A DNA stretch of 64,000 nt from Membranipora membranacea (taxonomy: Eukaryota > Bryozoa > Gymnolaemata > Cheilostomatida > Membraniporidae): the NCBI GenBank assembly GCA_914767715.1, contig OU612075.1:5208001-5272000 (forward strand), in the 5' to 3' direction. A program made the translations under genes and the position numbers. Every line of letters starts with the position of its first letter. Position 1 is the first letter of the stretch. The notes under the pieces were generated by a model that was not told the DNA's origin, did not search any database, and saw nothing but the letters and a program-made list of their open reading frames with translations. This document shows, in pieces, positions 14,192 through 37,400 of the stretch.

Positions 14192-14199
14192 TATAAATA
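14192..14199 (+). promoter_or_regulatory. TATA box of gene A
   Basis: TATAAATA stands 81 bases upstream of the chosen ATG at 14273, so initiation near 14220 would leave a short leader. The flanks (GTATAAATA, then GGTTCGAA) match the corresponding site of gene B (GTATAAATA, then GGTTTCGAA), which argues for a conserved core promoter. Confidence 0.65.
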
Positions 14200-14272
14200 T
14201 GAGGTTCGAATCGGTGAACAGTATTCAGCTGGAAAAAAATCACATTGTTATTTGAAAATAATAGAGGAGAAA

Positions 14273-15737
14273 ATGGCAAAGCTCAACAGATTGCAATTTG
14301 GTAATAATTATTGGTCTGATGTTCTTGTATGCTATCTATTCTTGTATGCTCTGATATCTTATTGTTTACAGTATACTCAATATGTGAACACTTTTGATTT
14401 TTAATTTTAAAATATTATGCTATCTTTTATTTGTAGTGTTGGTTATTCTATCAGTGACGTTGATAAATAGATGCTGGAGTTATCCTAGCTCTGAATATCC
14501 AACAATTGTTTACGAGCTACAACCGCTAATATCATCCTTTATTGTAAGTACCCAGCTACCAAGCTGTGTTGAGGAGGATTCAGAAAATGTTTTTTTTATA
14601 ATAACATAAAACGCTCTCTGGCAAAACACGACCTGTGCTACTTTTAACAGATCTTCTTTTCTGAAACAAACCCAACATAATAGCATTGTTGAAATTAATA
14701 GCTGATTTGCCAATAACATTAACATTGTTTATCAAAACCAAGGAATAACAGTTACACCTTGGTTTAACATAGGTACTTTTCATCATTTATTCATCTCATT
14801 CATCATTCAACGTCTTTTCATCATTTATTCATAATTTATTTATTTTTCTAACAACACAGAAATGCTATTTTTTATAGAGAAATAGCGGGTATTTTGAAAC
14901 CAGTAACTGTAGAAGACCATGCAATGAAGTTCTCTCTTGGTCTGATGAACAGGTTAGTGTTTATAGTCTCTGCAATTTCTTGAGGAAAAAATAGGAATCA
15001 TCTCCAATTGCCAGCTGTTGATTCATAACATTATTAATGTGCATTGACGGTTTACTACCAAATTTTTGACACTCCCTTTATTTCATCATTTCCATTAATA
15101 CTGGTGTGTTATTTTATTTCGCACCTTACGGAATATTGTGTAATTTGTGTTTGTAAAACCAATATTAAAATTTATAGAAGGAAAATAACGTAGATTTGTC
15201 TGTTTCAGTTGCTTGTCCAGCTTACTACAATTTACTACCACCTTGAGACATACGATAGACTGTATGGATATGATGTTATGATGGGATATATAAGAGACCA
15301 GCCTCTCTTTGAGCTCATTCTACAGTTTCCTCACAGTAGCCCAGATATAATCTCAACTGTCACACGTCCGGGTCAGTAATTGTATTATTTTGTATTTGCA
15401 TTCTATTTGTATTGTATTGTATTTTTGATTATTACTTCTTTTCTTATTTGTCTTATCGTAATATTGTATGTAATTGTAAATGTACATAAAGAGAAAAGAA
15501 ATCCAGTTAAATCACTTTAAATTGTTACTTTTCTCTGCCTAAATTTCCCTCTAGTGGATTTCGGAAATTTTAAGCTTTTAAAGAAATAAAAATGCTTTTG
15601 AGAAATTTAATTATACATCATTAGTTCCCACAATAATCATGTGATGATTGAATAATGGATTACTGTGAACTTTTTTAGATCCGATGTGCTACGCTGTGAT
15701 ACTGAAATCTATATTGACGTGTCAGATACACTCTTAA
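14273..15737 (+). CDS. Gene A: small secreted helical protein of a novel tandem family (143 aa, 5 exons)
   Basis: Exons: 14273-14300, 14437-14543, 14878-14952, 15209-15371 and 15679-15737 (TAA 15735-15737). Phases are 1-0-0-1 and all ends are GT-AG. The first exon gives MAKLNRLQF, and joined to exon 2 it forms a standard signal peptide ending near NRCWS. Exon 2 then encodes an amphipathic helix-like segment ending ELQPLISSFI. Exon 3 carries GYFETSNC-x3-C followed by VLSW. Exon 4 (163 nt) encodes a long helix-like stretch with IYYHLETYDRLYG. Exon 5 is DPMC-x10-CQIHS. The exon 3 and exon 4 lengths equal those of gene B exactly. The product should be secreted, with disulfides most likely from C-x3-C and C-x10-C. 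I do not recognise the family; a cytokine- or hormone-like ligand is a structural guess. Confidence 0.85.
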
Positions 15738-16038
15738 AAAGGAGATCAGAAATATCCTTGTGGTGATTACAAAAGTATCATAACTTTGATCATATATTAG
15801 CATTATTCCTATCATATCCTAGAAATATCATTAGTTTTTCCAATACACACATATCTCTTGGTGAAGTTATTTTTGAGAAAATCATTGATTTTTTTCTTAT
15901 TTCACTCCGTTTGGTCTAACCTCTCTTGGTGCATTTTTATAAGAATCTCTTTACATTCTCTTCACCAGCAGTCCATTGTTATTCTACCCAATATATTATG
16001 TTTCTATTTACCTTTCTATAATTATTCAATAAAATTGG

Positions 16039-16423
16039 TTAAAGGGCAACCAAGGTTTCGCAGCAATGCATTAATGGGTCGCAAATAATGTGCTGGGCAG
16101 CATCAGCTTTGTGCATTATGCGATGCAAAACTCAAAGTAGTTGCTGACTCTAAGCTGGGAAACACTTCAGTTTAGGGGAGGTTCCAAGACTTTGCTGTAA
16201 TAATTATAGAGCACAGGCTAAGTAATAACAGGAACAGGAAACTGCTATGTGGTATTCTCTTTTAGCTGAGTTTGAGTACCTGATGGCAGAAATGTTTCAC
16301 AATAATTCTGGCTGAATAATCATCCGAATTATATTTTGACTTTTTCCCCATGCAGAAGGTGCAATCTGCTATTAATCAATGGCCATCAATGAGAAGTTGT
16401 TTGAAACCTTGGTTGCCCTTTAA
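16039..16423. mobile_element. TTAA-flanked MITE (family M2), copy 1
   Basis: It is bounded by TTAA on both sides, with perfect terminal inverted repeats AGGGCAACCAAGGTTTC / GAAACCTTGGTTGCCCT. A nearly identical copy is at 20985-21370. The TTAA target and size suggest a non-autonomous piggyBac-like element, and there is no coding capacity. Confidence 0.8.
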
Positions 16424-16544
16424 CATTATTACTATCATGAAAATTGAGAAGTAATCAATTAAGTACCATAAAATAAAAAAAGATCAAAGATGTTGCACAT
16501 TTATTACCGAATGATTACCAACAAATTCACACTGTTTGCCTGGT

Positions 16545-17060
16545 GCCAATCAGCCAGGGATTCATACCAATGGTTTTTGCCATCGTCTTGAGAGCCAAAC
16601 CCTTACATGTAATGCAATTTTGAATTTGTTATTTTAACCCGGTTGTGTTACCTCAATATTTTCTCATATAGTTTTGAATGCTCTATGATTGCTGTTACCT
16701 GTACTGTGGGGTAATAATATTGTGTATGTAATAGTATATTGTACTCTACATCTCAGCTGTTTTGAGTACTGTCAAATTATTAAACTAGTGCCAGTATACC
16801 CATATCTCGGTCAGCCAGAGGTCGAACCATTAGTTTTTTTGTTCATTTTTTGCAGCAGCCCTCCCACATTTAATTCTATTTTTAATTTGCTATTTTAACG
16901 CGGTAGTCTTGCCACAATACTCAATTAGCCTTTTGTGTCATTCATGCCTGCTGCTGTTACCTTGAACTAAGGGGTAATACTTGTGTGCGTAATAGACCAT
17001 TTAATCTACATCTCAGCTGTTCAGTGTACTATTAAACTATAAAGCTTGTGCCAGTATACC
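16545..17060 (+). repeat. Two-copy tandem duplication, unit about 260 bp
   Basis: Ordered matches run between about 16560-16810 and 16815-17065: TTAACCCGGTTGT/TTAACGCGGTAGT, GCTGTTACC, CTACATCTCAGCTGTT, TTAAACTA and TGCCAGTATACC. The copies are moderately diverged and I see no coding function. Confidence 0.7.
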
Positions 17061-17364
17061 GGAATCTTGGTCAAACATCTTGCCAAACAACATATATTTG
17101 TCCTGGCTCAAAATTTAGAACACTGCTGCATTGACAAAAGTAGTAACCTTGTCACGAGGCCACTTCAAGGTTACATAATAATAGCAACCAACACAACTTG
17201 TAAAGCATCAGCAGTAGCAGCAGCAGAATATAGATTAACAATGCAAGTGATGAACCAAAACCAATACACACCTTTGAAAGTATGTCCAATTAATACACGA
17301 TCCCAATACACAAAAAAAAATTCCTCGAGGGTAAATATCTATGTTTGAAGCTGATGTAGGCACT

Positions 17365-17530
17365 GATATATATTATATGGACGTCAATCAAGGCATGACA
17401 TAAAAGCTGCCAGATTTATAGCTTTATTTTGATCCTGACACAAAGCTCTATACTGATGGCATATCTACACAAATAGCCAGCAATGTATATTAACGCTTAT
17501 CCATAAATTCATATTTATAGATGTGGTTTT
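17365..17530 (+). repeat. Segmental duplicate of 21945-22075
   Basis: Shared words in order: GGACGTCAAT, AAAAGCTGCCAGATTTAT, GCTTTA, GATCC.GACACAAAGCT and CCATAAATT.ATAT. The two blocks are about 4.6 kb apart. With the M2 pair this suggests that a larger piece between genes A and B was copied. Confidence 0.7.
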
Positions 17531-17789
17531 AAGACGAAGGGTTAGCTTCAGAATTTTGTGTGGGCAAACAAGATATATAAGGATGTTAAATAAAATATGA
17601 GGAACTGATTGTCCTCTCAGATAAGAAAACGACGTATCAGCGAAGGTGATTTGTTGATTGCAGCTGTGCCAAGATACATCAAAATGAAGGAATCCACAAT
17701 AAGTACACCAACAATGGCTGGTGATAAGAATGTATGGAATATATCATTGTTATATCCCTCAATCAAAATAACACTGATGAAAGATAACC

Positions 17790-18640
17790 ATTATATATAT
17801 ACTTTTATTGTCATTCTACATCATCTTTAGGAATGTTTTTCATGCAGTGACAGAACAAAAAAGAAAAAACTTAAGCGGAGAGAAAAAATACTCAAGTAAC
17901 AAAAATTAATAGGATATAAAGTGCTTTGATAGTTGTTGTTTAAAATGAGTGAGTTTGGTTGCTGAGCGTATCTGAATTGGTAAAGAGTTAAAAGTTGTAG
18001 TGATTTTTTGTCTTAATTGATCAGTGTGATAATGTAATAGGAATCTGTCTCTAAAAAAGGTTTTAGAGCTAGCTGGAATAAAGCCTTCCAAAAGAAAGTC
18101 AGGTGCAATCAAATGCAAAATTTGGAAACCAAAAATACAGGTGAAATGACCAGCAAGGAGAGGAAAAGGAATCAGACCAAGAGATGTATGTAAATCTCTT
18201 GTATGTATTAGATGATATGGTATGTGGCTGACATTTGCTATTAGGCGGAAAGCCCTCTTTTGGAGCAAGTATATTCTTTCAAGAATATATTGTGGTGATA
18301 GGTTGCCATATATGCGGATGCCATATATCATATGACAAAAGACATACTGGAAATAAAAGTTACGAGATGATTTACTATCTAGGAATGCCCTGCATTTCTG
18401 GAATAATGCCAAACTTTTGTTTATTTTGATGCAAATCTGGTCTACATGATCGTCCCATGTCAATGAGTCATTCAAAGTAAAACCAAGGAGTTTGGTATTG
18501 GCATTTCGGTTTAGTTTTTGAAGAACCATTGAAGAATAATCAGGCGTATAGAATATAAAAGAACAAGGTGGTGTTATCTGTGGGCAACCATGCATTGTCA
18601 ATTTAGAAGAAGCAATAAACATAAAAATACTAGTTTATAT
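17790..18640 (-). pseudogene. 5'-truncated non-LTR retrotransposon: reverse-transcriptase C-terminal part
   Basis: The minus strand has an open frame of 238 codons (18622 to 17906). It matches the layout of the thumb and post-RT region of LINE reverse transcriptases: LGFTLNDSLTWDDHVDQI, then MIYGIRIYGN, then LLQKRAFRLIANV, and a conserved tail before a stop. The catalytic palm, with its F/YADD, and any endonuclease are absent, so it is a dead 5'-truncated copy. AATAAA on the minus strand (17803-17808) lies about 100 bases past the stop. A jockey/CR1-like clade is my best guess. Confidence 0.85.
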
Positions 18641-19284
18641 CTTTTGGTAGCCGCGTTCCTATGGCAGCAAAAAAGGATGATCTATATTTATAATTTATCT
18701 AATTACAGTAAATACTAATCACAATGGTGGAACTGGGCAGACCACAAAGGAATCAGCTGTCCTTGCATATGTGTGATGTATGTTGCATCAGCTGTCCTGG
18801 TATTGAGATATTTGAATTTTCAAAAAGCCAGCTAGGTTAGTCTTATCACAGCAACCCCACTTTTGTTTCTTTTTTTGTAAGCTAAACAAAAATGAGTCGG
18901 CTTTAATAAAACTGTGTTTGCAAACCTCCCACTGGGACGTTAGTTTTATTTTTAGTAAGTCTCTGACAGAATATTTTACCATACCATCAGTTTAAATGAA
19001 AAACATAACCTAGAGGACTAAAAAGCATTTGCATATGGGACAGTGTTCTCTATCACATGTAGCATAAGAATTTCATCAGTCTTACTGTGCTACTTTTTGA
19101 TAACGCTTACGATGCATTTAATGCCGTACCTGATTTGATTGGAGGAATTACCTCTCAGTTCCAAACGTGACATCGCATCAGCTAGGTGGAGTGTTTACAT
19201 GGTGTTACCTCAGCAAGTGTTATGATAAGCCATGCACTCGTAAAATGAAATTACCTTTTAAAAAATGTATAACTTTTTTATATA

Positions 19285-20600
19285 TAGACCAACTCATTTC
19301 ATGATAAATAGGAAAAATTCACTGATAAAACCGCAAGAGTGCTTGAGAATTTGTTGAGGACAAACATATATAGTTTTGATTATGTGAGTGGATGATATCA
19401 GTTCAGATGTTTACGTAGGCTTTGTTTTAAAGTGCACTAGAAAACCTTTGACAACACACTACTTGCGCCAATGGCAATTGGCAACACCCATGCAGCGTTT
19501 ATCACAAGTCTTGATATCCATGACTCAATTGTTAGTAAATTCATGTCCCCTGCTTTCCACCCTAGTTGATTTGATCTTCATTTACACCTAGTCTTTCTTA
19601 CTTGAGAGTTCGGCCATATGTCCTGTCTTAAAAACGCAATACCTATACCCCATAACAACTATCCTCCTCCTGTCAAGGTTTTGGTCATAAGCATGAGAAG
19701 TATATGGCTACTTAGTTTTACTCTTAGTTTTATTGGAGCTAAATTTAATTCATTTATTAATATATTTATCATGTTTGATCGTGTGATTACTTATATGGAG
19801 CTGCCCCGCAAACTCCTTAAAGGAATTTGCATTCAAGGTACAGTCTGATGGAACTGTTCTGAGGAGTGAGGATGCCCAATAACACATGTATATTGAGCAC
19901 TTCTATGGTTTTTTGCACTTGGGTAACAATTTTAGCTAGTCAATCTGAAATTTTTCCCATGACTGCCAATTTACTTTCTATGAACAGCCATTAAGGTTTT
20001 TATCTACTCCATTCCTATGGTCCTGGTAGCCTGTGACCATTGGCGTGTAACCTGATCTTTATAATCGAACCTTGATCTTTGCTTTGGGAATTCCTGAATG
20101 ACGATGCGCCCTGCTAGGTGTTATTGTAAAACGGAATTTCTTATCAGCATGTATGGCGCTGTGATCCATAAAATGTGTTTACTTTTGATGATAAATTTAG
20201 ACCAACTCATCTCATGATAGGGAAGAAATTCAGAATATACCAGGAAGAAAAGTACTTGAAAATGTCTTATAGGTGAGGTATTACGGTACATACATGATAC
20301 GCAGGTGTGTACGTAGGTCTATGTTTTAAGTACACTAGTAATGTCTGACAACAATGACAACAACGCCCAAGCTTTTTTCATCATCAGTCTCGAACATTCA
20401 TGGTTCGATGACTGTAAATCTATTTTCACTGCTTCAATAGCATATTAAATTAATCTTATTTTAAAAGCTTAGATTTTCTTCCTTGAGAATTTAGCTATAT
20501 GTCCCGGTCTTAGTCATCCCCTAATTAAAATTATTGCACACTATCTCCTTCTATCTGACAGGGTCATGGTAAAAGGCATCAATAAGTAAGGTTCTGTATA
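19285..20600 (+). repeat. Diverged tandem duplication, period about 913 bp
   Basis: Block 19285-19690 aligns with 20198-20600: TAGACCAACTCAT.TCATGATA, then (A)GTGCTTGAGAA/AGTACTTGAAAA, then ACGTAGG.CT.TGTTTTA and further words. Identity is moderate with indels. The open frames inside are not conserved between the copies, so no gene is supported. Confidence 0.6.
19976..20110 (+). repeat. Segmental duplicate of 21566-21705
   Basis: Matching words in order: CTATGAACAGC, ACTCC..TTCTATGGTC/TAGTC, TGATCT.TATAA, GAACCTTGATC.TTGCTT.GG and GAATTCC..AATGACGATGC. The tail word also recurs near 22150-22190. This belongs to the mosaic of copied blocks between genes A and B. Confidence 0.65.
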
Positions 20601-20661
20601 AGTGTTGTATTACTAAGACATATACATCATCAGTGGTAGGTATTTATTGACTTGACAGTAT

Positions 20662-20665
<4 letters not shown>

Positions 20666-20698
<33 letters not shown>

Positions 20699-20712
20699 TA
20701 TATATATATAAG
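20666..20712. repeat. (TA)n microsatellite
   Basis: Almost pure TA dinucleotides for about 45 bases, followed by AT-only sequence to about 20770. Confidence 0.95.
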
Positions 20713-20984
20713 AATATAATGAAATATAATTATAATATAATCATAATATATATTATTAATATTAGTTATTCTCACAATTCTTCATCTACCTACAAGTTAA
20801 AAAAATTCATGAATTAGCCACCCAACCTTTCTACTAAATATTTAATACACGGGTCAAAATATTAGCGAATTGTGATTTGTGAGGCTTCCCTTTTTAAAGT
20901 AACAATGAGAATTTTGCAAAAGTCTATCTACTTTTCTAGATAATTTCGAATAAGCGAAATTAAAAAAACCATTGAAAATATTAC

Positions 20985-21370
20985 TTAAAGGGCAACCAAG
21001 GTTTCGCAGCAATGCATTAATGGGTAGCAAATAATGTGCTGGGCAGCATCAGCTTTGTGCATTACGCGATGCAAAACTCAAAGGTAGTTGCTGACTCTAA
21101 GCTGGGTAACACTTCAGTTTAGGGGAGGTTCCAAGACTTTGCTGTAATAATTATAGAGCACAGGCTAAATACTAACAGGAACAGGAAACTGCTATGTGGT
21201 ATTCTCTTTTAGCTGAGTTTGAGTACCTGATGGAAGAAATGTTTCACAACAATTCTGGCTGAATAATCATCCGAATTATATTTTGTCTTTTTCCCCATGC
21301 AGAAGGTGCAATCTGCTATTAATCAATGGCCATCAATGAGAAGTTGTTTGAAACCTTGGTTGCACTTTAA
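20985..21370. mobile_element. TTAA-flanked MITE (family M2), copy 2
   Basis: It is nearly identical to 16039-16423 along its whole length. Differences include one base in the right terminal repeat (TTGCACT instead of TTGCCCT). TTAA flanks both ends. Confidence 0.8.
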
Positions 21371-22966
21371 AACCCATACGCATTGTGCCTCTCACAGCCA
21401 GCAACGGGTGCTGGTAATTTTGCAAGCGATTGATACGGTCAGATGAAGTCGTTCTTGAGATAGAAGATGCCCAAGAATACATATGAATATAGGTATCGCT
21501 TTCAGCTAATCCATTGCAAGCTTTCTGATGAATCTGATATAACATATGGGTGTCTGATCCTTAATTCATCAACTATGAACAGCGATTTAGGTTACTGTTT
21601 CACTCCGCTTCTATAGTCTTGGACGCTCAGCGACCATGAATGAGAAGACTGATCTATATAAATGAACCTTGATCGTTGCTTCGGGAATTCCAAAATGACG
21701 ATGCAACTTGATATGTATCATTGTATCAAGGAAACCCTTATCATTGTGTAAGACAGTAAGCCACTGATATACATTATATGGATGAGGGGTACATATCTGA
21801 CCCTGAGCAAGCGTATGGCTATTCATGTATGATTGCTGGACCGCATTACTCATCTTTGATTGGTCCACAAGTTCAGAATCTAGAATGGCTGACACTTGTA
21901 AATTTTTGTCAAGCAGCTTGCCTGAGCTTTTGAAGGTGTTTACTGGGACGTCAATTGATGCATAAGATAAAAGCTGCCAGATTTATGGCTTTACTTAGAT
22001 CCGGACACAAAGCTTTTCTCTGTAAATAGCCATACTATGTATTTTACTACTGTCCATAAATTTATATCAATGCAGTTAGCTTGTAAGTTGATCACATGGC
22101 CCCCACACCATACTTGTCAATACACTAGCTGACAATGGGTGAGAAAACTCATTTGGGAATTCCAAAATGACGATGCAACTCAGGCAACTTGGCTATGGTT
22201 TTATTGACACAAGGATTCCTTATCTCTGTGCGGGGCGGTGAACTGGAAGGAAATCTATCACATGGCCCCCCACAACAGGATGTTTTCGTGTGGATACACA
22301 CCGTTGTTAGATGGTGACTCACTAGCGACTTATGATAGATGTGACCTACATTAATATCTTGTTGAGATACAGATAAAGAAACACAAGTCATTCAGGTTGA
22401 CCGGTGTATTTTGTACCATGTACCATCAGCATTAACTTTATATCGGCGCAATGTAATTCCTGAGCATAAAAATAATAACGAGTTTGTGGTTTTTTGTTAC
22501 CCCCTTTACCTCTATGGTTAGTTTGTATGCGTTGTCGTCGCAATCAATTTGAAATTGAAACCGAATTATGAAGCATCAATGTTTAAGCATTCTGCCTGCA
22601 AGATGGTTTTGGGGCATTGTCTATGTCCTCAGACCAGAGATGCTGTATTACCAAGAGTAGCAACTCCCGTAATAACATTGTTGGCCATATAATTTTCAAC
22701 AAGCATAAGTGATTGAATCAAGACGTATGTGGCTATACTTTGATACCTTCCGCATATACAGAGTGATGTTTTTGACATGGCTGCTAAGATATTCCTTTTC
22801 TTGAAAGCGTGTTTGTACCACCCACATATAACTCTGCATGCCAATTGCACACTCCATTTCAAGCTCGCTTATGTTTGCTCGACTTTATTGGTTTTTTATA
22901 CTCCGCTTCCAGACCTTTGAAGGTCTTGTCAACCATCCAAACCTAATGAAAGTTTTACCAAACCAT

Positions 22967-23328
22967 GCGGGTTCTGGAAAACGCGGAAAGGCGGAAAATC
23001 AGTTCCATCGTGGAAAAGGGTTTTCCGCGTTTTCCAAAAATGAAAAAACCTGAAATTCAGGCCGTTAAAAGATGGGCGTGATATCTTAATGGGTTACAGT
23101 TCATTTTCTATGCATTGAGATCAATTTTTGAGGAAAAAATATTTTCCGCATTTTCCCAAAATATTATTTATATCACTTGATTTTTACCAAAAACACTCAT
23201 ATGATACAGTGGTGATGTCTCAATGTCTTTCCAGGATTTTTTTTTAGCATCATCATCAAATTCAAGGTGAAAAACGATTTTCCACGATGAAACTGATTTT
23301 CCGCCTTTCCGCGTTTTCCAGAACCCGC
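22967..23328. mobile_element. Fold-back element 3
   Basis: The left arm (GCGGGTTCTGGAAAACGCGG, then AAAGGCGGAAAATCAG) is mirrored by the right arm (CTGATTTTCCGCCTTTCC, then GCGTTTTCCAGAACCCGC). Degenerate repeats of TTTTCCGC fill the centre. It is noncoding and intergenic between genes A and B. Confidence 0.8.
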
Positions 23329-23775
23329 AAACATGTAATAAAACATTATGATGAAACAATGCAAAAAAACAACAGTAGTTGTTAATGATGTATTAAATTG
23401 TGAAAGTTTATCAATCGCCGTTGATTGGTCAGCAGACCTTCAGGTTTGTGGCATTTCTACGAATTGAGCCCTTTAATTGGAAAACAATCAAAGTTGCGTA
23501 AAATCTTCAGTAGCAAAGAATCCTTCTGAAAAAATATCCGGTGCATAAGTTCAACTCCATCTTAAGCAAGAAGGACCCCCACGGCAAAAACAATAAAATG
23601 CAAGCCAGGGGCCATTGTTAAGACAATAGTTTATTCTTCATCGCTTTATGCCACACGCACACAAACATGCTCATGTGTCGTGGACAAGACAAAAAATGGC
23701 TTAGCAGAGCAAGTGCCAAACATAGTTTTGATTATGTTAACAGGCAAAAACTGTGCGGGCAATTTGCCAAGTTAT

Positions 23776-23849
23776 AAAAACAATGACCAAATACTCTTCA
23801 TTGTTTTTGTAACCTGTTGCTGCAAAAATTCAAACAGGTTACAAAAACA
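23776..23849. promoter_or_regulatory. Two overlapping perfect inverted repeats just upstream of the gene B TATA box
   Basis: AAAAACAATGA pairs with TCATTGTTTTT (about 23776-23808). GTTTTTGTAACCTGTT (23803-23818) pairs perfectly with AACAGGTTACAAAAAC (23833-23848) around a 14-base loop. The last arm ends three bases before TATAAATA. This could be a regulatory palindrome or a mobile-element footprint. Confidence 0.45.
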
Positions 23850-23851
23850 GG

Positions 23852-23859
23852 TATAAATA
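23852..23859 (+). promoter_or_regulatory. Probable TATA box of gene B
   Basis: TATAAATA sits in the same context as at gene A (GTATAAATA, then GGTTTCGAAAGCGAGCATAG). The coding start is about 400 bases downstream. I infer a 5'UTR intron, with a candidate donor CAG|GTATGT at 23971 and a candidate acceptor CACAG ending at 24255, ten bases before the ATG. Confidence 0.5.
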
Positions 23860-24265
23860 CTAAATGGGTTTCGAAAGCGAGCATAGTTTTGTTAAACTCT
23901 TGCGATCACTAGCAGCAGGGAAATCAATGAGAGATGGCAAATCTAAATCTATCAAAGCTGGTTCTGTCAGGTATGTTCAAATTGTGGGCATACATGTGTA
24001 TATGCGTATATGCATAAATATGCATGCAGTGCAGTGTCACTGGTTGTCACTGGAACATCTTCAAAATAATGAATTCATCATGTTTAAGATCACACGGTAA
24101 GACCTGTTTGAGACTTTACAATTCATGGAACTTTCATTTCATCAATCATTCATTCATAAAGTTTGCGTAAATTACAGAGATGTGACACCAACTCAAGTCT
24201 GTGGTTGTATGGTTGAAAAAAAATATCAACCAATAATCAATCATACCAACCACAGTACTAATATA

Positions 24266-26446
24266 ATGAAAGTTTGCATCCATGGAGGTAAAAATATCAA
24301 TTCTAAGCAACGCAGGATGATAGTAACTGCTTGCCTGTGGTCCCTACTAACACTCATTGTTGGAAAAGAACCTCTTTTATCTGTTGTAGTTGTGGCTATC
24401 CTCTCTGTACTGTGTATTGATAGAAGCTCAGGCGTCTCACAATTTGCGTTAACAGTCAGAGAACTACAAACTCAGGTCTCAACTTTTATTGTAAGTACCT
24501 CAAACTAGGAATAGATATGAAGTCAAAAACAGGTCAAATAATCTGATAACAGCTTCTCCACTTAGACTATCTTATGTTTAGGTCTATAAGGTTTAGATAT
24601 TAGCTACATAGCCGACAATTTTTGCCAGCTTCAGTCCTATTGCTACATATTACACGTGTTTTCATATCCAACACAGGAAAACCAAACAAACAAACCAGAT
24701 GTAAAAAAATATGTTTATGAATCTTGTAGGCAAAATATGATTATTTCGAAACCAGCAACTGCAAGGCGAAATGTGATGATGTTTGCACCTGGACACAGAC
24801 AGAGGTGAGGGTTGTTATACCAGTGTGAATGTGAGATCAAAAATTTATTCATTTAATTATAACTTGAATTAAAATGATTTTCAAAAATTTAAATTTAGAT
24901 TTAGATAGATGATAACCTTGTGTCTAAACTTGATTGGAGCAGAGCTTCACTGGATCACTGCTCATACCTGGGGGATGATGTAGAATGTGCTCTCTCTAAT
25001 TTTAACCACTGTATATTTTACTTTATGCACTCCTGTTCCTAGGTGCGTAGTTCTAGGGGAGACAGGGGCGCTCTGCCGCCCCTAGAATGTTCAATACAGT
25101 GGCCAAAAATGCTATAATTTGATATTCCTTGTCAGAATCAGCTCATTTGGGACTTCAATTTGCTATTTGTATCATCAAAACACTTTGGAGGTTGGGTCTG
25201 GTGACTCAACCTAGTGTTTCTTCACACCCTCAAGGATTCTCCCCTTCCCTATTATGGCCCTGTCGCCTGATACAGTATTGATGGCAAGGTCTCGGTCCCG
25301 GTCTCGTTCTTGTGAGACCTGTCCCTTCGACACACTGCCTCGTCTCGTCAAGAGGTTGGTAAAATGACAAAACAATGCTACTAGAAAAGTCTGGACTCCA
25401 ACAAGACTAAATATTTTTGTTTTCTTTATCAATAGATCAATGTATGTTACTGTAGTACCAAATTCACACACTCTTTTAGATGTATACCAAGCTGAAGAGA
25501 ATATACTGTCAGCTGAGGAGATACGAGGCAATGTATGGACTTGAGGCGGACGTAGTAGAATTACGTGACATAACACTCGTAGATCTTATCCGGCAAATAC
25601 AAGATGGCACCCAAGAATTAACATGCACAAGAGGCAGAGCAGGTAAGCATTGTCATAATTAATTCAACTTGTCAACATAGTGATTCTTTGCTGCGATCAA
25701 CCCATTCTTTTTTGGAGATGGTGAGATCGCGTAGGTGCATTTGCTATTCACTGCCAGATGATCGGTGCCGCAGAAGTTGTGGGTTTGAGCCCCATTGAGA
25801 TAGCTATGACAGTTGATTGTTCCAGCCCCCAGCACCCTTGGCTGGATATCTCCTCTGTCTTGACAAGCTTTTGATTGTTGAGGGATTACTCCCTCCAATC
25901 AAGCCAATAGATTTTGTAAAAACAGGATTGGGCATAGTATCCGAGGTAAAGAGTTTAAAAACCAAAAATTTGTCGATTAAAAATGTTAGAAAAATAAATT
26001 TAAAATATTAAAATTGTGTAAAATTATAATTCCAGATATTTGAATTGAAAAAAAAAAATTCAATTCAAGTCATTAAATTTTTGGAGGTACTTTTATAGCC
26101 TGGTCTGTCTGCCTGACTAGTACTAATTTTCTTTGTGCCGCGTACTTAACCTTGTGAAGCTAAGGATATTCCATGATTATTATTAATAGACTAACGATGT
26201 TGGGAAAATCAATAGACAAAACACCTTGGTAGATATGAGGGGAGTAGGCCCTTCACAATCATCATTCGTTTGCATAACCTGGTTAATATTGGTTTTCCAG
26301 GTACTAGTTGTGGTATGGCTGTAAAGAAAAGTTTCACCTCATATGTTAGCGTAGACTGACATGTTTGACCTTGAACTTTTGTAGATCCCATGTGTAATGC
26401 TGTGATACTAAAATCAATATTGACATGTCAACTGCACATCTGCTGA
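24266..26446 (+). CDS. Gene B: small secreted helical protein, paralogue of A and C (140 aa, 5 exons)
   Basis: Exons: 24266-24287, 24390-24490, 24730-24804, 25480-25642 and 26385-26446 (TGA 26444-26446). Phases are 1-0-0-1. Exon 1 encodes MKVCIHG, and joined to exon 2 it yields a signal peptide (VVAILSVLCIDRSSGVS). The helix-like segment in exon 2 ends RELQTQVSTFI, against YELQPLISSFI in A. Exon 3 is YDYFETSNC-x3-C with extra cysteine DVC. Exon 4 aligns with A and C at the pattern IYCQLRRYEAMYG. Exon 5 is DPMC-x10-CQLHIC, with an extra terminal Cys. B carries more cysteines than A or C, so it may form additional or intermolecular disulfides. Intron 1 (102 nt) is open in frame with no stop, so exons 1 and 2 look like one frame. 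Confidence 0.85.
25720..25865 (+). mobile_element. SINE-like element (family S2), inside an intron of gene B
   Basis: It matches 27810-27945 on the opposite strand: TGCTATTCACTGCCAG, TGATCGGTG.CGCAG..GTTGT, GGTTTGAG/GGTTGAAG, then GTTGATTGTTCCA.CCCCCAG and CACCCT.GG. The GTGGGTTTGAGCCCC word resembles a tRNA B box. Two copies in opposite orientation indicate a retroposon family. Confidence 0.65.
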
Positions 26447-26576
26447 CTCAATGTCTTTAACTCCTTGGCTGACTTCTCTGCAGGATGGAGACAAATCCCA
26501 CATTATCTATTATCATTTTATCTCAGGTTTTTTAAATAGTCAATAATATTATTAAGAAAAAGTTTTCAGCTCTCAT

Positions 26577-26705
26577 TGCATTGCATTGCATTGCTTTGCA
26601 TTGCATTGTATTGCATTGCATTACATTGCATTGCATTGTATTGCATTGTATTGCATTACATTGCATTGTATTGTATTGCATTGCATTGCATTGCATTGCA
26701 TTGCA
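26577..26705. repeat. (TTGCA)n pentanucleotide microsatellite
   Basis: About 25 units of TTGCA with TTGTA and TTACA variants, starting about 130 bases past the gene B stop codon. Confidence 0.95.
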
Positions 26706-27037
26706 TAGGTCCCGTTAACTACATTTAGCCCAATTTGATACTTAGCTCATTACTGTGGATACTATTTTCTAATATAAGGGAGAAATCACCCTAGGTTTTT
26801 GTCTCAATAACTCATTTCACATTAAATTTAATTTTGGTTAACACATAATTTGCATACCATAATCCATATATTTTTTATCTCTGCCCTAAATTTTGAATAA
26901 ATTATTTCATGTAATATTGCTATAACCATCTTATTTCGGTTTTTTTCCTACCCACATAAAAATCATTTAATAAATTCTACCTCACTTTGAGAGACCGATC
27001 AGGTTGATTAAAAGGTTAATATAAATCAGCTGTCTTA

Positions 27038-27135
27038 TCACGCGTCACATCCCGAAGCATGGGCGGTAAAATAGTAGTTGCCTTATTGGCAAGGCAGCAA
27101 TATCTGCGCCAGGTTGCTCTCTGTTTGCAGGCAGG
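27038..27135 (-). mobile_element. SINE-like fragment (family S1), minus strand
   Basis: Read on the minus strand it contains ACCTGCCTGCAAACAGAGAG, then CAACCTGGCGCA and CGCCCATGCTTCGGGATGTG. These match 1985-2105 in order. Confidence 0.55.
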
Positions 27136-27809
27136 TCAGGACATAGAGATCAAGAACATTTCCTCGAAAGCAAAGTGTATCACCGGGCTGAGGCAAATTA
27201 TAATCATTCTTCACTCACTTTTGTCTTGCCAAAAACAATATAGACATCATCAGATCTTAGTTTACAAATACAAGCGGCAGACAAGGAAGGAAAGATACAT
27301 TGCACCAAAACACTGACAACATAACACAGAACAAACAACTCGATGGCACGAATGAATGTGCCACCTTTCAGATAATAAACTTGGGTGTGTAGTTGGTACC
27401 TTATCTATGGATTAATGAAATTTAAATTTCGAAAAATTGATACAATATTGGATGTAAAATGCAGGGCAAGTTATCACCCCCTAAAAAGTTTTGTCATTTT
27501 CCCACGAAGAATAATTCTCCCGGTACAAGTTTTCTTGAAGTGGTACAAGTTGATTCCTATTTAAAAACTGGTAAACAACAAGTTTATCAATAATCTACAT
27601 TCCACTATATCAGGCCAACATGAGTAACCGTCACTTTCCACATCCGTTATTATTATTATCATCATCATCAATTTTAACGTTAATATATTGTGATGAAATA
27701 ACACGCAACATGCAATCGGATGTAACGTAGAACAGAACCGGGATCGGGTATAAGGCTTCCTAACATAGGCTGTCGTTGCATTGTTAAAAGAAAATATTAC
27801 CAAAGGCGA

Positions 27810-27945
27810 TGTATGCACCCGAGGGTGCTGGGGGTTGGAACAATCAACCCTGAAAGCTCCCCAGCTGGACTTCAACCTACAACTACTGCGACACCAATCA
27901 CCTGGCAGTGAATAGCAAGCTCGCGCTATCACTCCATCTCACCAT
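27810..27945 (-). mobile_element. SINE-like element (family S2), minus strand
   Basis: Reverse-complement match to 25720-25865 over nearly its full length, including the TGCTATTCACTGCCAG block and the GTTCCAACCCCCAGCACCCT block. Confidence 0.65.
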
Positions 27946-28454
27946 CTATCCCCACATGTGAAGAAAATGTCACAAGCGCTGATTGGTGACACAGGTTGTG
28001 TGTTCGAAAGTGACACATTATATCTTATAGTATCATAATTGATCTTCAAGCGTACATCTTATTTACGTCAAAGAGGAAAATACCTCAATGATAAATTTAT
28101 AGTTGAGACTATCACATGACAGGATCTAAATTTAATGGGGATAAAAGATCAAAATAATTTGTAATAAATGATCTGGTATAGCAGGGTTCAATATTCGGAT
28201 GCATGATTATAATATTACCAACAATAAAAGTCATAATTTTTAAATACAATGACAACTCAACTACTCTAGGCATGTAGCAGCCTCAGTTATGGAGTTTTTT
28301 TGTTGCAGCTTTTACGTAGAGAGGGAGAGAGGGATGGGGGATTGATATATGAATAAAATTGTGTGCGTGCCAACCAAAATTATATAGATCTATATTATCA
28401 CACCCATTTTTTGAGGCTTTTTGTGATACTTTAAGTCCTGATGGCTGCAGTAGG

Positions 28455-28975
28455 GTTCTTAGGATCCTAGCTCAAGTGGGGAGGGGTGAGTGGATTACAA
28501 ATACAGTCACACTTGGCCATCGTAAAACTGAGTCACTAATTTGAAATATAGATGCAACTTTAGGATGTTAGCTCATGTAGGGAGGGGTGTTTGATAAAAA
28601 ATAATTGCGAATACGGAAACTTGGAGCCATTGATAAAAACGAACCACTAATTCTGTCCCTTCATTTTGGTGTCTAGACCAGTAGCTGATAACTATACGAC
28701 CAATGTTGATTGCGTCACAAGACGTGATCAGATTATCTAAATCTAAATGTGACATAGATCAGGATGCAGGGTTTACATTTTGTTTAACTTTTTGGTGTTA
28801 AATTTAAAGTTAAAAATGAGAGGAGCCACGATTCTCTTCATTTTCGTTATCATGATTCGTCTCTCCCAATTATACCTCAATTTACTTCAAATGTGAGATA
28901 GATCACGAAGCAGTGTTTATATCATAGAACAAGAGGAGCCACCCCCCTCCCTCTTTCTGGTTATCATGATTCAAA
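28455..28975 (+). repeat. Two adjacent two-copy tandem duplications
   Basis: The first pair is about 28458-28545 and 28560-28655, sharing TTAGGAT, TAGCTCA.GT.GGGAGGGGTG and CACTAATTT/CACTAATTC. The second pair is about 28745-28868 and 28890-28975, sharing TGTGA.ATAGATCA, GAGGAGCCAC and GGTTATCATGATTC-like words. The copies are diverged and noncoding. Confidence 0.6.
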
Positions 28976-28998
28976 ATCTGAAAAAAATCTGAACTGAT

Positions 28999-29372
28999 AA
29001 GCTTACATAAACATTGGTATTTAAATATAGTCCCATCTATCAGGCCTAAGTGAGGAAGAAAACACTAAAAGTGATAACATCACAAATGTAATGTGTTAGT
29101 ATCTTTTCATCTTGAAAGAAGGATATAACTACCTTTACCTAGTCTAAGTGGAACGATAACAGAAACAAATCCTTGATTATGTAATAAGCTTACGTAAACA
29201 TTGGTATTTAGATATAGTCCCATCTATCAGGCCTAAGTGAGGAAGAAAACACTAAAAGTGATAATGTCACAAATGTAATGTGATAGTATCTTTTCATCTT
29301 GAGAAAAGGATATAACGTACCTTCATCTAGTCTAAGTGGAACGATAACAGAAACAAATCCTTGATTATGTAA
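28999..29372 (+). repeat. Recent tandem duplication, two copies of 187 bp
   Basis: 28999-29185 and 29186-29372 are nearly identical; both begin AAGCTTAC.TAAACATTGG and end CAAATCCTTGATTATGTAA. High identity points to a recent event, unlike the diverged pairs just upstream. Confidence 0.9.
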
Positions 29373-31023
29373 CTTGTTGATCAATGGTACGGTACTGGCT
29401 TGTATTTTTGTGAACAGAGAATGGATTTAGATATGAAGCAATAAGTTACAGCGGTCATGTGATACAACAGTTTAGAGATCACAAGGTTTAGATGCTGTAA
29501 TTTGCAGTACAACCCTTGTCTGAGCCATTCATATTCCAGCTCATGTGGCATTCAGAACTCTGACCTGAAATGTTTACTTTCTATCTTCTTTCATGGTTTA
29601 TATTTATGAACAATACACCACAGTGTCCCAGCAACATACATCTGCTTCTAGAGCATGGTGACACAACAGTATTTAATTTCACATGTGTAATGAGTATTTT
29701 GGTTTAGAATCAAATATTTTGAGGTGGGTAAAATATGAGGCTCCGTTTAAATTGAAATGAGGTTCCATGTGTTAAAATTACATAAGCTGATATTTTGAAC
29801 ATGCTTATGTCAGTAACATATTCCTTGCGCAACATAAAGTACAGTGGTGTCACAGGAATTAGAATTAATTTCACTTCAGATTTTAAACGTACAGATTAGT
29901 CTCAGCAAAAAAGTTTTGGAACTATCGTATTTTTACGGAAAAAATACTGTATCTGAATTTTTGACGATCATTTATAAATTTTTTTTAGTTTCCAGAAAAT
30001 AGGAATATTATGAGTTAAAATGAAGATAAATTGACATTTGTGGTTATCCAATTGGAAGAGTATGATATGTCATAAACATAGTTTGTTCGTCAGTCAGCTG
30101 GCAATGAATGAAATTCAATTCCAACCTTTGATGTGACTTGTGGAATAATCACAGCCCTAAAAGCAGCATTCTTTCAATCCGCAGGTTTGTAGTATAAAGC
30201 GAAAAATTCTCCTGCAATCAAATCCCTAGACTACTTTGTATATTGTGTATCTTTCTATATATACATTTATTGCAAATCTTGGAAGATAGGTTTTCAAAAC
30301 AAACAAATTACAGGGGCTAGGCTTTTGGGCATTAGCAAATCCTTCCACTGGGAGTTGCTTCTCCTCGCAAATACATAAACTGATCATCATGTGTGAATAA
30401 AATCATTGCTGAAGTTGATTTTGTAACAAATGTTTTCTTGTTTGAGGTAAGATGTGTGTAGATTAGAGAGTGGTGCAATTCTTATCTATAATTTAGGTAC
30501 AGTGTTCCAGTACAATTTATTGGGGATCTTCCTCATTGCACCAAAATTTGAAAGTTTTCCTTGAGGTGTCAAAGCGAACAAAATTCAGGAAATCCATGAC
30601 TGATATTTGTGCGGGATGAGATATCAGAGTTATCCAAATTCACCTTTGAAGTAACCAACGGATACCCTAAGAAACCTTCTTATGATTTTACCAACCTACA
30701 TAGAATAGATAATCATGATATAGACAGTTTTACCAACTCACACAACAGGAAAAATTGTCCACTGAGGAAACTAGGAAGTGATGTAAATGGTCTTTATCTT
30801 AACGCCTCAATAGGTGAAATAAACTTCTGACCAAAGTCCTAATTGCCATTACGATGCAGAGATATAGGTTTGGATTGCATAATAACACATTATTTTAGAA
30901 CACCGTGACATCCTAAGAAATGTATTATATTATTGGATGGTTCATTACGCGGATGTCGTTGATAATATATTTCAACATCGGGCTACCAAAACTTTTCCAC
31001 ATGCAACATGGGAAGACTTCAAG

Positions 31024-31031
31024 TATATAAG
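31024..31031 (+). promoter_or_regulatory. Candidate TATA box of gene C
   Basis: TATATAAG lies 109 bases upstream of the ATG at 31133, a spacing like that of gene A. The flanks are less similar to A and B than those two are to each other. Confidence 0.45.
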
Positions 31032-31132
31032 CAGACATTTAACAAGATGGAAGAACAGTACGCACACGCATCTCAGAGTCCGCAACTTGGAGAGAACTAT
31101 AGCATTCACAATTTACTCGACAAAGAAGTAAA

Positions 31133-33199
31133 ATGATTTCTCTAAGCCTATATTCCCGTAAGTATATTTTTCCATATGTCACCCAATTTCGTTTTGATTA
31201 TTTATTGAATATGTTAGATTTCAAAACATTCTAAGTTATATGTAATGACACGCTGATCAGTCCTAAAGTCATCAGACTTTAAAAATCAGGCCAACAGTAT
31301 TTGATATTGATTTGTTGAAACGGTTTTGTCAATCCTTGGTCTTAAATAAGTCTTAGAAATAGTTTTCGTACCTCACTAGATGAAAGGAACTAGACCCAAT
31401 AAACTATCATGACATTTAAAAGTCGTTAACAGGAATATATCTATGATTTCATGATTTACAAAATTTAAAACCATACACTGCTGAGCTGAGCGTTGTCGGT
31501 GATGGTTGCTTTTTTATTTCTTTCAGTAATTTTGGTGCTGTCTTTTGCTGTATTAACTATCCCGGCTCACAGCCCAAGTTGTGTGGCAGCATACCCTGAT
31601 GAAGACTATCTATTGCAAGCTTACTTGGTACACATGCTCGTCACAGACTTTCTCGTTAGTAAAATTTATTCAATAACTCTTTTTACTTAAATTGAATACA
31701 TTTAATTTTAGCAACTAATTCATGATGCAGTTCCAACTGGTACACAAGCCAAAGACGCTTTTATTCATAATTATTGGGTATCTAATAATTTCAAAATGAT
31801 ATGATGATCAGACTAGTTTCAAAAAATTTGATCCTCAAATATTGTTTTCACATATTGGCCCATATTACTTTGTTTATTGCAAAGTGACTTTGTGTAATAC
31901 TGGAGTTATCTTCTTTATATCAAGGGGAGGACAACTATATTTTGAATTAAAATTGGCCATTATTATTATGTGCGTGTTAATTGCCTTGTTTTTGTATTAT
32001 AGGACACAGAGGCAAGGGATCATGGTTATCACATACACAATAGATGTAGGGAGCGATGCAGAAGCGTCAGATGCTGGAATGATACACAGGTACCCAATGA
32101 GCATCCTACTATTGTAGCTGAAGATTATTTAAATTACCTCCTTGGATATAACGTTATTTCGTACGAATATCAATTCCTTCATTTTATAGAAGTCTTAGAA
32201 TGCAGTATCAAATGCCAGTGCTGTTGCAAGCAAATCAGTTCAAACATCGATTACACCACACGAGTTTATTTGACAAATTCAGCATACTTTGAGATTGATG
32301 AAATGGAATTCAATTTCTGAAAACAGAATGTGGCGTGTTTTAGTTTCTTAAGTTAAAAGTTTGTTAAATTTACTTTACTTTCTACTGATTTTACAACTTT
32401 TTAACAAAAGTTTGTCAAATTTACTTCAATATTTCACTTCTCTGTGAGCTTTAACTTTTGATATAAGTAATTTAATTAGTATTAGATATTAATGAATTTA
32501 TAATTGAATGATTTAATTTTAGCTGTTTGATGAGTTGCAATCGGTGTACTATCAGATGAAGACCTACACACGATTGTTTGGTGCTAATGAGAGAATGAAG
32601 ATGGTCACTGATGAGATGGTGGCGCTTATTACTCTCTTCCCTCAAGTGTCGACATCTGCTGTTGTAAACCCATTCATCAGATACCCAGGTATGTAAGAGA
32701 GAATGGAGAAAATTGTACAATAATAGTTGAAGTCCTCATAGCGGTGTGTTGTGATCAAACATACACTGCGGAAGCATTACTTGCAATAACAAATAACAAG
32801 TATAACTTGAAGTCCGATTTGATTTGCCAGCATTTTCTAAATTTGCTCCCATCAAATCAAACCCACTCTAGTGAGACATAGTGGCTTCAGTAGTAGCATC
32901 TAAAGATTTGATCGAGATACATGCTTGAAGGTAATCAAGCTATCGATATACCGACCACACTGCTATTTAAATCTTCAGTCATCTGAATATTATTGATACT
33001 GTGTAGTATCATATTTTTCATTGTGTTACAGTAATTAAGTGTAAGGCAATGAACAATGTTGCCATTTGATTTTCACTCAAGTGAAAAAATAGCTTACCGA
33101 TCCCATTTTAACTAAAATAATAATTGTTCTTTTCTTTTAGATCCCATGTGTAGTACAGTAAAACTTCAATCTATCTTATCCTGTCAGATAAGCCAATAA
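31133..33199 (+). CDS. Gene C: small secreted helical protein, paralogue of A and B (154 aa, 5 exons)
   Basis: Exons: 31133-31157, 31527-31654, 32003-32089, 32523-32688 and 33141-33199 (TAA 33197-33199). Phases are 1-0-0-1, as in A and B. Exon 1 encodes MISLSLYS, and across the junction it gives a signal peptide running LILVLSFAVLTIPA. The exon 2 helix-like segment ends HMLVTDFL. Exon 3 keeps the Gly-Tyr and the C-x3-C (CRERC) but has lost the Phe-Glu-Thr-Ser of A and B. Exon 4 aligns at VYYQMKTYTRLFG. Exon 5 is DPMC-x10-CQISQ. C is the most diverged and longest copy, with exons 3 and 4 longer by four codons and one codon. AATAAA overlaps the stop codon (33195-33200), so the true poly(A) site may lie further downstream. 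Function as for A and B: secreted, family unknown. Confidence 0.85.
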
Positions 33200-34478: not shown

Positions 34479-37400
34479 TTAGAGGTCTTCATTAAATGGG
34501 AGGGTGTTAGGATGGCATGTCATCATATAAACTCCGCCCACAGGATTCAGCCATGCTGTCACCTTATCATGAGGGGCCAGAGTAGCAATAAACTTTCCTG
34601 TAAAATACAACAGAGCCATATTTTAGAAAAAATGGTAGGGGAAGCAAAAGTCGGAGGCGAGTTATAAGCATCACCAGGAGGGGTGCTGTAAACTTGTCCC
34701 CTAGCAATTAAAGGCATATAACTGGCAAATGGAAATTCCAGAGCAGCTGTTTCTGACATGGATTATTCAATTATAGTGTTTTTAGACCACTATATTTAGC
34801 TTTCTAGGTGAGGCAGTGCCCCCTGCCTCCCCTAGAACTGGGGACCTGGGGGCCTGTACAATCAAGAGTGTACATATCCTTTACTGGAAATATCCAACAG
34901 AAAAAGACGGAGGAATAAATATAGGCTAAAGTTTAATTCAGCTAGTTTGTGGATAACTTGATATGAATAAGCTCTAAATTTTGACTACCTGAGGTATTTT
35001 GGCTACCTGTCTATATATTTTAACATCAGAGATAGGTATTTTTGTGACAGCATTTCATAGCAGGATGATCAGATCAATCAAAACAATAAAATGAACATCT
35101 TGTAAAAGTAAGGCGTATTGCGTTGGGCATGAATAATTATAAATCATGACGTATATGAAAGGCAATGGGAGTCATATTAATTAATATCTCAGTATGGGGC
35201 AACTCCAAAATGATAGCCATATATATAATGATAGCGAGAGCAGGGAGTTTGGTCCCAAAACTCCCTGGCGAGAGCTAAGGGAAGCATTACCTTCAAATGT
35301 CTCATAGCAATCATAGCTAACAGCAGAAGCGAGTCCTAGGTCTTTAAGTGTCCTGTCAAGGCGAGATGGTGTGGGTCCTGGTGATGTCCTCAATATTGCT
35401 ACAGCCATGGTGCCACCTTTGAGCTCTCTCAAATATGTTTCAATACTTGGGTCCTACAAATAAAAAATGAACAGATTTTATATTTTTACTGGCTGGTATG
35501 CCTATAGGATATGAAGCTTTAGGTGAATTATAAATACGGAAATTTAGTTGCATGTTACTTTTGCTGTATACATAAGAGTACCCCTGTTAAAGAGGAGATC
35601 ATTTCTTAATAGTACAATATTTCAATGGACACAGAAAGTACTCTTATTAAAGCGAAGACAACTACTAGATGACATTAAATCGAAGGATCTTCACCGTCAG
35701 TCATATGTAGTGATGGCATGTCTCGGTCCCGGTCTAGGTCTCGTGAGACACTGTCTCGACTTGTCGAGACAGACACTATTGATAAATGTCGAGACTTTTT
35801 CATCGTAAACACTGTTTTTTGTCACGGTTTATGCCACAGTTTTTGATAACAAAAAATCAAAAAACCATGGCCGATGCCAATAACGTGGCAGTTTTAAATT
35901 TTATCGGCATCGATATGTCTCGGTCTCGTCTCGAATTTTGTTGCTGTCTCAGTCTCTTCCTGCCTCGCCAAAATCTGACAATTTGTCATCACTAGTCATA
36001 TGGCTAAAATAGTTTATGCTGATTGATGTTCAGTTCACCTACCTTATAAACTCTTAGTCCTTGTTTGCCGAGGGGATCCTGGTTGACAGCAATCACATTC
36101 TTATTAAGCAGAATTTTAGCAGCATCAGGACGGATATTTCTGAGATCCACGGACATAATGAGGGGCGCTGCGTAGATAGCCCACAATGCCATCTGCGCTC
36201 TCATCTGGTCATAGGTTAGACTGTAATCTCCAATGATCAGCTACAAGATGAAAGCACAAATACATGTAGATGATCAATTAATGTGAAATGTTATTTTTGT
36301 GAATGTGAATACGTCCGCTGAAGCCAATATAAATGGTGACTTCATAGAAAACAATATAAGGAAGTGACTGAAGGACAATGGGTATGATTAGGCGAGGTAA
36401 GGTAAGAGAGGTTTTGTCTTGAATTCCCGGCGGACGAAGTGGAGTTTCCAACCAAACAACTATGAGTTTATGGATATACGGTATTTTCCTACGGGCTAAT
36501 ATTCACACAGGCGGCCTGGTTCAGTATTGATGAAGGTTGGAATTTTATCAAATTTTAATCTTTTAAATTTGAGCAAGGAGAATACAAGTCTCGAAACTTG
36601 AGCTTGAAAGCCACTTCACAAACATGAAGAGCTGTTTAGTGATAAGAACCGTAAGGGCGAGTTGGCATCAAACACACCCATCACTATTCAGTGACAAACA
36701 CTCTCTCCCCAGAAAACCCAAACTAAAGTCTTATCATGTCCAATATTGTACCTCTTCAAGGTCGCTGTATTATCCCGTGACGTCAATCTGGGCAAATCAT
36801 CAGTACATTTAACATTTATCTGTACATCTAATATTTATCTATTCTAGAAATGTGACCATTATTTTTGCTTGTCATTGTTTTATAGTGACACCATTGCCAT
36901 TTACACATAACAATTCAGAGGTATCAACAATATTTGATCAAAGCCAGTTCAGTTCAATGCCACTTCTTGATTTGGAGTGTCACAAACGCTGATAACAGTC
37001 ATGATAGTGGGGTCATGACATGTTTAACCAGCTCAAATTTTGTGCTGATTTAATCACTCTTCAGTGTGGAAACGCCCCCTGAAAACCAAAACAAAAATGT
37101 TATCACTTCTAGAACCATATCACATCAGGGTCATTGAAACACTACAGAAACTCCGACAAAATGTTATCAAATCTAACATCGTACCACACTGACATCGATG
37201 TTCCACTATTAACACATGTACCTCTGATTGTTAGAGTCAATTTCGTAGCAGTACCTAACATGTACCCACCCCTAATTAATAAAATTGAACACGGGTCATC
37301 ACACCAAATTCCTTGTGATGGTACTCCTACTAAATGATTTAATTCACTCTTTATCTATTATCGATCCGAGATATACATGCAATAGTATACCAGGTGATCA

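Follow-up and report, generated by a model that had tools for sequence, protein, structure and literature searches.

In the genome of the bryozoan Membranipora membranacea we identified three loci, termed A, B, and C, that very likely represent three real, related genes. They are located in a stretch of 64,000 nucleotides (nt) of chromosome 11 (OU612075.1, positions 5,208,001-5,272,000), referred to as the window, and all coordinates are counted from the window start. Gene A covers positions 14273-15737, gene B 23934-26446, and gene C 31133-33199, all on the same strand. The analysis supported the view that the three genes form a tandem family with one five-exon design, encoding small proteins that are probably secreted. 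We tentatively read the three proteins as tandem secreted four-helix-bundle ligands, cytokine- or hormone-like and built like class I helical cytokines, and consider the chance of this reading being correct to be somewhat below even. A, B, and C would then be candidates for a type of signaling molecule that has scarcely been recorded beyond the vertebrates. We committed to this reading because of the exon plan, the conservation of the last segment and of a loop, the predicted helix pair in exon 4, and the STAT- and JAK-like sequence found in the genome, and we present it as a testable proposal, not as a result.

Gene Models of A, B, and C

A preliminary description of this DNA had claimed three same-strand loci with five exons each, intron phases 1-0-0-1, and precursors of 140-154 amino acids (aa). 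When the models were rebuilt from the sequence, all three loci were found to have five exons and the phase series 1-0-0-1, with precursors of 143 aa (A), 145 aa (B), and 154 aa (C). All 12 introns, which range from 136 to 742 bases, start with GT and end with AG, and no stop codons were found inside the models. The exon lengths are 28, 107, 75, 163, and 59 nt in A, 37, 101, 75, 163, and 62 nt in B, and 25, 128, 87, 166, and 59 nt in C, with exons 3 and 4 being equal in A and B as also described previously. The earlier claim that no exon lies in a long open frame needs correction for exon 2 of B, which lies in a frame of 135 codons (24101-24508).

The three proteins were compared by tblastn to both strands of the whole window at E ≤ 5, using neither composition correction nor the low-complexity filter. 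Cross matches were found only between corresponding exons of A, B, and C, and matches elsewhere in the window, outside the three genes, had E-values of 0.28 or more. Exon 1 (A, 14273-14300; B, 23934-23970; C, 31133-31157) holds the start of the signal-like peptide and ends in phase 1; it was placed by position, phase, and donor, and was not linked by sequence between the three genes in this search. Exon 2 carries the rest of the signal-like peptide and the proposed helix A, and is located at 14437-14543 in A, where it ends in phase 0, at 24390-24490 in B, and at 31527-31654 in C. With A as query this exon matched B with an E-value of 0.086. Exon 2 of C had no tblastn link to A or B and was placed by position, phase, and splice sites.

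Exon 3 encodes a loop with GY...C-x3-C...W in A (14878-14952, ending in phase 0) and the corresponding C-x3-C loop in B (24730-24804) and C (32003-32089, 87 nt). The match from A had an E-value of 9e-5 to B and 0.002 to C. Exon 4, with the proposed helices B and C, is located at 15209-15371 in A (ending in phase 1), at 25480-25642 in B, and at 32523-32688 in C. Here A matched B with an E-value of 4e-4 and C with 1.3e-4, and C as query matched exon 4 of A with 3.5e-5. Exon 5 (A, 15679-15737; B, 26385-26446; C, 33141-33199) encodes the proposed helix D and the stop codon, and in all three genes it carries the DPMC-x10-CQ ending that had been claimed as common to the family. A matched B in this exon with an E-value of 1.8e-6 (16 of 18 residues identical) and C with 0.003. 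B and C were also linked by exon 5 with an E-value of 0.003, and by this exon alone, exons 2-4 being unlinked between these two genes.

On the promoter side a TATA box within the 11-mer AGGTATAAATA was found in A (14192-14199) and B (23852-23859), with the 11-mer located 81 and 82 bases 5′ of the ATG, respectively. A second TATAAA is present in B at -161. Gene C has a TATA-like box at 31024-31030, where GTATATAA is located 109 bases 5′ of the ATG. The palindrome TTCGAA was observed by eye just downstream of the TATA boxes of A (14205-14210) and B (23870-23875), and is possibly a start-site or regulatory element shared by the two genes.

Sequence Relationship Between the Genes

The protein identity is 44% between A and B and 34% between A and C. 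An alignment of the three proteins has 27 invariant columns out of 156, and 11 of these are in the last segment of 19 residues. In the loop encoded by exon 3, two cysteines, one tyrosine, one valine, and one tryptophan are invariant.

When the loci were compared to each other by blastn, exon 5 was matched in all three pairs (E 2e-15 for A and B), and exons 2 and 3 were matched in part between A and B. A and B also gave a match of 34 bases that joins two introns not corresponding to each other; its E-value of 0.006 is as good as that of the exon 2 match, and weak DNA matches in this AT-rich sequence therefore mean little. Codons were compared in four gapless blocks of our own choice comprising 89 codons. 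In these blocks 42 residues are the same in A and B, 16 of them through different codons. Differences at the first, second, and third codon position numbered 32, 24, and 43 between A and B, and were nearly flat between A and C (41, 34, and 45) and between B and C (45, 40, and 45).

Copy Number in the Genome

The genome searched comprised 339,339,785 bases in 18 contigs. The published tzMemMemb1.1 assembly is described as 21 scaffolds of 339.4 Mb, i.e., three more scaffolds than were searched (PMC10290214). Protein and pattern searches of this 339 Mb genome did not reveal a fourth copy of the family. A gave 11 matches, of which eight were exons of A, B, or C and three were located elsewhere (E 0.08, 0.11, and 5.0). 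B gave seven matches with one elsewhere (E 1.1), and C six with one elsewhere (E 2.9). We looked for the family motifs on either strand of the five loci with outside matches (L013, L014, L017, L024, and L083). In L014, the reverse strand was found to contain a frame with DPMC-x11-C and no visible exon-like setting, and a second motif match in L014 contains a stop; we read both as chance matches.

The pattern AGATCCNATGTGY, which covers the acceptor and the start of exon 5, was present at 50 places in the genome, three of them being A, B, and C. All 47 others were read; none has DPMC-x10-C and three have DPMC-x11-C. Because the reversed control pattern matched 82 times, the outside matches are at chance level. 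The first pattern used on the genome matched at seven places, two of which were B and C, and its reversed control matched at 13. At this sensitivity, the sequence searches suggest that the family consists of three genes in one cluster.

Searches for Relatives and Known Families

The preliminary description recognized no known family, and our searches agree with this: Pfam, PDB-sequence, and protein profile searches all ended without a credible match. A hmmscan of Pfam-A at E ≤ 10, in which the HMMER filters drop most weak matches, gave nothing for A or C and three sub-threshold, unrelated families for B; no match was found to EPO_TPO, IL6, Hormone_1, LIF_OSM, or other class I families. A profile of the three sequences gave two matches among PDB sequences, the best with an E-value of 0.56. 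A profile search from the three proteins was run against 5.8 billion proteins, and none of the 843 word-sharing candidates had an E-value of 1 or less. A second protein search with words limited to the conserved stretches gave no candidate sharing three words. In viral contigs 25 stretches fitted a pattern and none was confirmed, and the same was the case for 59 stretches in prokaryote contigs. As these searches depend on short exact word matches or cover prokaryotes or viruses, there may still be distant relatives in animals.

The protein database contains some bryozoan proteins, including NAGA of M. membranacea, but gave no A, B, or C. Since bryozoan proteins are in it, the lack of a match would mean that the family diverges fast, that it has not been annotated in related species, or that these species do not have it. 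Literature searches on the subject listed no bryozoan helical cytokine among their titles. No description of the A/B/C family was found in the searches made. If A, B, and C are not cytokines, they still make up a family of small, spliced, probably secreted proteins in a bryozoan.

Predicted Structure and Proposed Mechanism

A hydrophobic N-terminal segment was read in all three precursors, and from this N-terminus A, B, and C are probably secreted. With a signal cut placed after residue 24, four cysteines are left in mature A, arranged as C-x3-C followed by C-x10-C. AlphaFold2 (AF2) was run on the exon-4 piece alone with the three sequences in two orders. With A first, helices were predicted at residues 2-20 and 24-39, and with low confidence at 46-52 (mean predicted local distance difference test score, pLDDT, 76.3; predicted TM-score, pTM, 0.60). 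With C first, the helices were at residues 2-19 and 23-37 (pLDDT 74.6, pTM 0.52), and residues 44-54 scored below 50. Exon 4 is thereby predicted with moderate confidence to form a helix pair whichever member leads, the tail being poorly predicted. Helical periodicity was compared to that of shuffled sequences, with segments of our own choice and uncorrected p-values, and was found to exceed the shuffles for proposed helix A (p 0.026) and proposed helix C (p 0.015).

In the proposed mechanism, tandem duplication followed by divergence would have given rise to A, B, and C, each being a variant of the ligand. Helix A would be encoded by exons 1 and 2 together with a signal peptide that is cleaved off; exon 3 would give a long loop between helices A and B that carries C-x3-C, exon 4 the predicted pair of helices B and C, and exon 5 helix D. 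The two cysteines of the loop would pair with the two of helix D (C-x10-C), pinning the loop along helix D; a helical last segment would place its own two cysteines about 16 angstroms from each other, too far for them to pair together. The loop and the adjoining face of helix D might then bind a class I-type receptor and thereby activate JAK-STAT signaling. STAT_bind sequence was found at two loci in the genome, together with one FERM_F2 fragment whose three PDB matches were all JAK2 (E ~0.005).

Comparison with Known Helical Ligands

The vertebrate class I genes, such as those for EPO and GH, have five coding exons and intron phases 1-0-0-0. A, B, and C resemble the genes of this class (EPO, TPO, GH, PRL, and IL-6) in that the coding sequence is split into five exons, the first of which is very small and ends in phase 1 within the signal-like peptide. 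They also resemble them in that the introns following the proposed helix A and the proposed A-B loop are phase 0, and in having the proposed helices B and C in one exon and the proposed helix D in the last. The proposed exon map is signal start, signal and helix A, C-x3-C loop (75-87 nt), helices B and C (163-166 nt), and helix D. EPO has C-x3-C just after helix A, as the three bryozoan proteins do after their proposed helix A, and in GH the A-B loop is tied to helix D by a disulphide, as is proposed here. Compared with the class I proteins, A, B, and C are shorter, carry two cysteines in the final segment, and show no detectable sequence similarity.

Receptor site I of the Tpo complex consists of the A-B loop together with helix D (PMC10850085). 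CRLF3 belongs to group 1 of the class I receptors; its endogenous ligand is described as unknown, with features possibly in common with EPO (PMC6797617). CRLF3 itself is a receptor; A, B, and C are candidate ligands. According to one report, no orthologue of EPO or EPOR is known from invertebrates, and human EPO acts on beetle neurons via CRLF3 (PMC5509957). Reports of IL6-like proteins are cited from Drosophila and from a sea star (PMC8226699).

Several observations weigh against the reading of A, B, and C as helical cytokine-like ligands. Phase-1 introns in the signal peptide are common in the genes of many secreted proteins, and small size and helices are found in many families of secreted proteins that change fast. 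The first three intron phases (1-0-0) agree with class I, but the last is phase 1 and not phase 0. Neither Pfam, PDB-sequence, nor protein searches gave a sequence link to any cytokine. The proposed helices are short, as is the chain, and the mean Chou-Fasman propensity was higher for strand than for helix in nine of 12 segments. Proposed helix B had a periodicity p-value of only 0.15, and for proposed helix D the periodicity at 100 degrees was absent (p 0.82), the moment at the strand angle being larger. A Foldseek search with the exon-4 model gave two matches, the best with an E-value of 7.5; a piece of two helices could hardly have done better. With signal cuts of our own choice the mature chains have four (A), eight (B), and five (C) cysteines, and one disulphide scheme may therefore not fit all three. 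No class I receptor was found: PF09240 (IL6Ra-bind) gave no matches in the genome, but none of 14 controls matched either, and this was not used as an absence. The disulphides of Tpo connect helices A and D and helices A and C (PMC10850085), which differs from the loop-to-helix D scheme proposed here.

Alternative Explanations

It is nearly as likely as the cytokine-like reading that A, B, and C are lineage-specific small secreted proteins which are not receptor ligands, having a role in defence, mucus, larvae, or reproduction and sharing helices and disulphides. The confinement of all relatives found to the cluster agrees with this, as do the lack of a sequence link to cytokines and the weak helix support outside exon 4, and the identities between A and B and between A and C suggest fast change, which is typical of defence and reproductive proteins. 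However, a single fold or interface under constraint is suggested by the fixed exon phases and by a last exon that is almost invariant. The chains are moreover acidic and not cationic, unlike most membrane-lytic peptides, with lysine plus arginine against aspartate plus glutamate being 7 and 13 in A, 14 and 15 in B, and 12 and 15 in C.

That the three genes encode true class I cytokines of the EPO/GH/IL-6 type in a lophotrochozoan, with the vertebrate-like exon plan largely preserved and acting as natural ligands of an ancient invertebrate class I receptor (CRLF3 or Domeless/gp130-like), goes further than the cytokine-like reading, and we consider it unlikely.

Also unlikely is a known family that the sequence methods missed, i.e., one that is Upd-like, interferon-like of the CgIFNLP type, of the CSF1/SCF type, or odorant-binding-like. 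Such families diverge past sequence recognition, and CgIFNLP, a lophotrochozoan protein from oyster, is described as having a structure that resembles class II helical cytokines (PMC9756803). The Unpaired (Upd) proteins of insects are secreted invertebrate ligands named as activators of Domeless-JAK-STAT (PMC13203501). Against a missed family stands the Pfam search, in which the three sub-threshold families, seen in B alone, were the only matches. Upd differs from A, B, and C in having longer, basic chains and different genes, and CgIFNLP is described as class II-like. Two types were rejected as candidates. The interferon/IL-10 type (class II) has introns that are all phase 0, which the phases 1-0-0-1 misfit, and the insect odorant-binding type has a six-cysteine order with C-x3-C and C-x8-C, which is misfitted by C-x3-C...C-x10-C.

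A gene-model artefact, in which the exons were picked out by eye in DNA that is not spliced or is no longer functional, would fit exon 1 of all three genes and exon 2 of C being without sequence match to the other loci, and a probably RNA-derived record of M. membranacea NAGA being present in a database that gave no A, B, or C, but is highly improbable since phase and splice-site type agree at every exon and sequence at most exons in three loci, the models are free of stops, the residues shared by A and B show synonymous differences, and the TATA boxes of A and B lie at matching distance.

Neighborhood of the Cluster

Downstream of the cluster, an alpha-galactosidase/NAGA gene is located on the minus strand at 36000-41540, identified by a Pfam Melibiase_2 match on one open frame. 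Its joined exons were 81% identical to Bugula neritina, 83% to Watersipora subatra, and 100% to a record sourced from the Joint Genome Institute (JGI), which places the animal among the cheilostome bryozoans. The JGI record is probably from RNA because its contig is 1954 bases but the gene spans more than 5 kb. A multi-exon gene, with exons assigned by eye, is seemingly located upstream of the cluster on the plus strand (~740-11860), and an inverted repeat with arms of 196 bases that are 96% complementary and 25 bases apart is found at 5683-6099, apparently in an intron of this gene.

An element of about 380 bases is present in two copies at 16041-16421 and 20987-21368, which are 95-97% identical and have TTAA adjoining. 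It has inverted ends of 19 bases, AAAGGGCAACCAAGGTTTC, with one mismatch in the second copy, and looks like a non-autonomous DNA transposon (miniature inverted-repeat transposable element, MITE). An open frame of 242 codons on the minus strand at 17906-18634 had no Pfam match at E ≤ 0.01; read by eye, it resembles the end of a reverse transcriptase from a long interspersed nuclear element (LINE). Between B and C, a tandem repeat of about 188 bases is present in two copies that are 95-96% alike (28997-29372). A tRNA scan gave none.

Implications

JAK, STAT, and the class I receptors have an old origin, but hardly any of their ligands are known from animals other than vertebrates. In the search for the ligand of CRLF3, functional searches have been favored over sequence similarity (PMC6797617). 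The exon plan together with the phase series is a criterion able to outlast sequence similarity, and the locus described here gives three sequences for testing a ligand, in a species whose genome and poly(A) RNA-seq (ERR6464929, listed in PMC10290214) are both public. If the three are true class I cytokines, the exon plan would date this type of ligand to the bilaterian ancestor.

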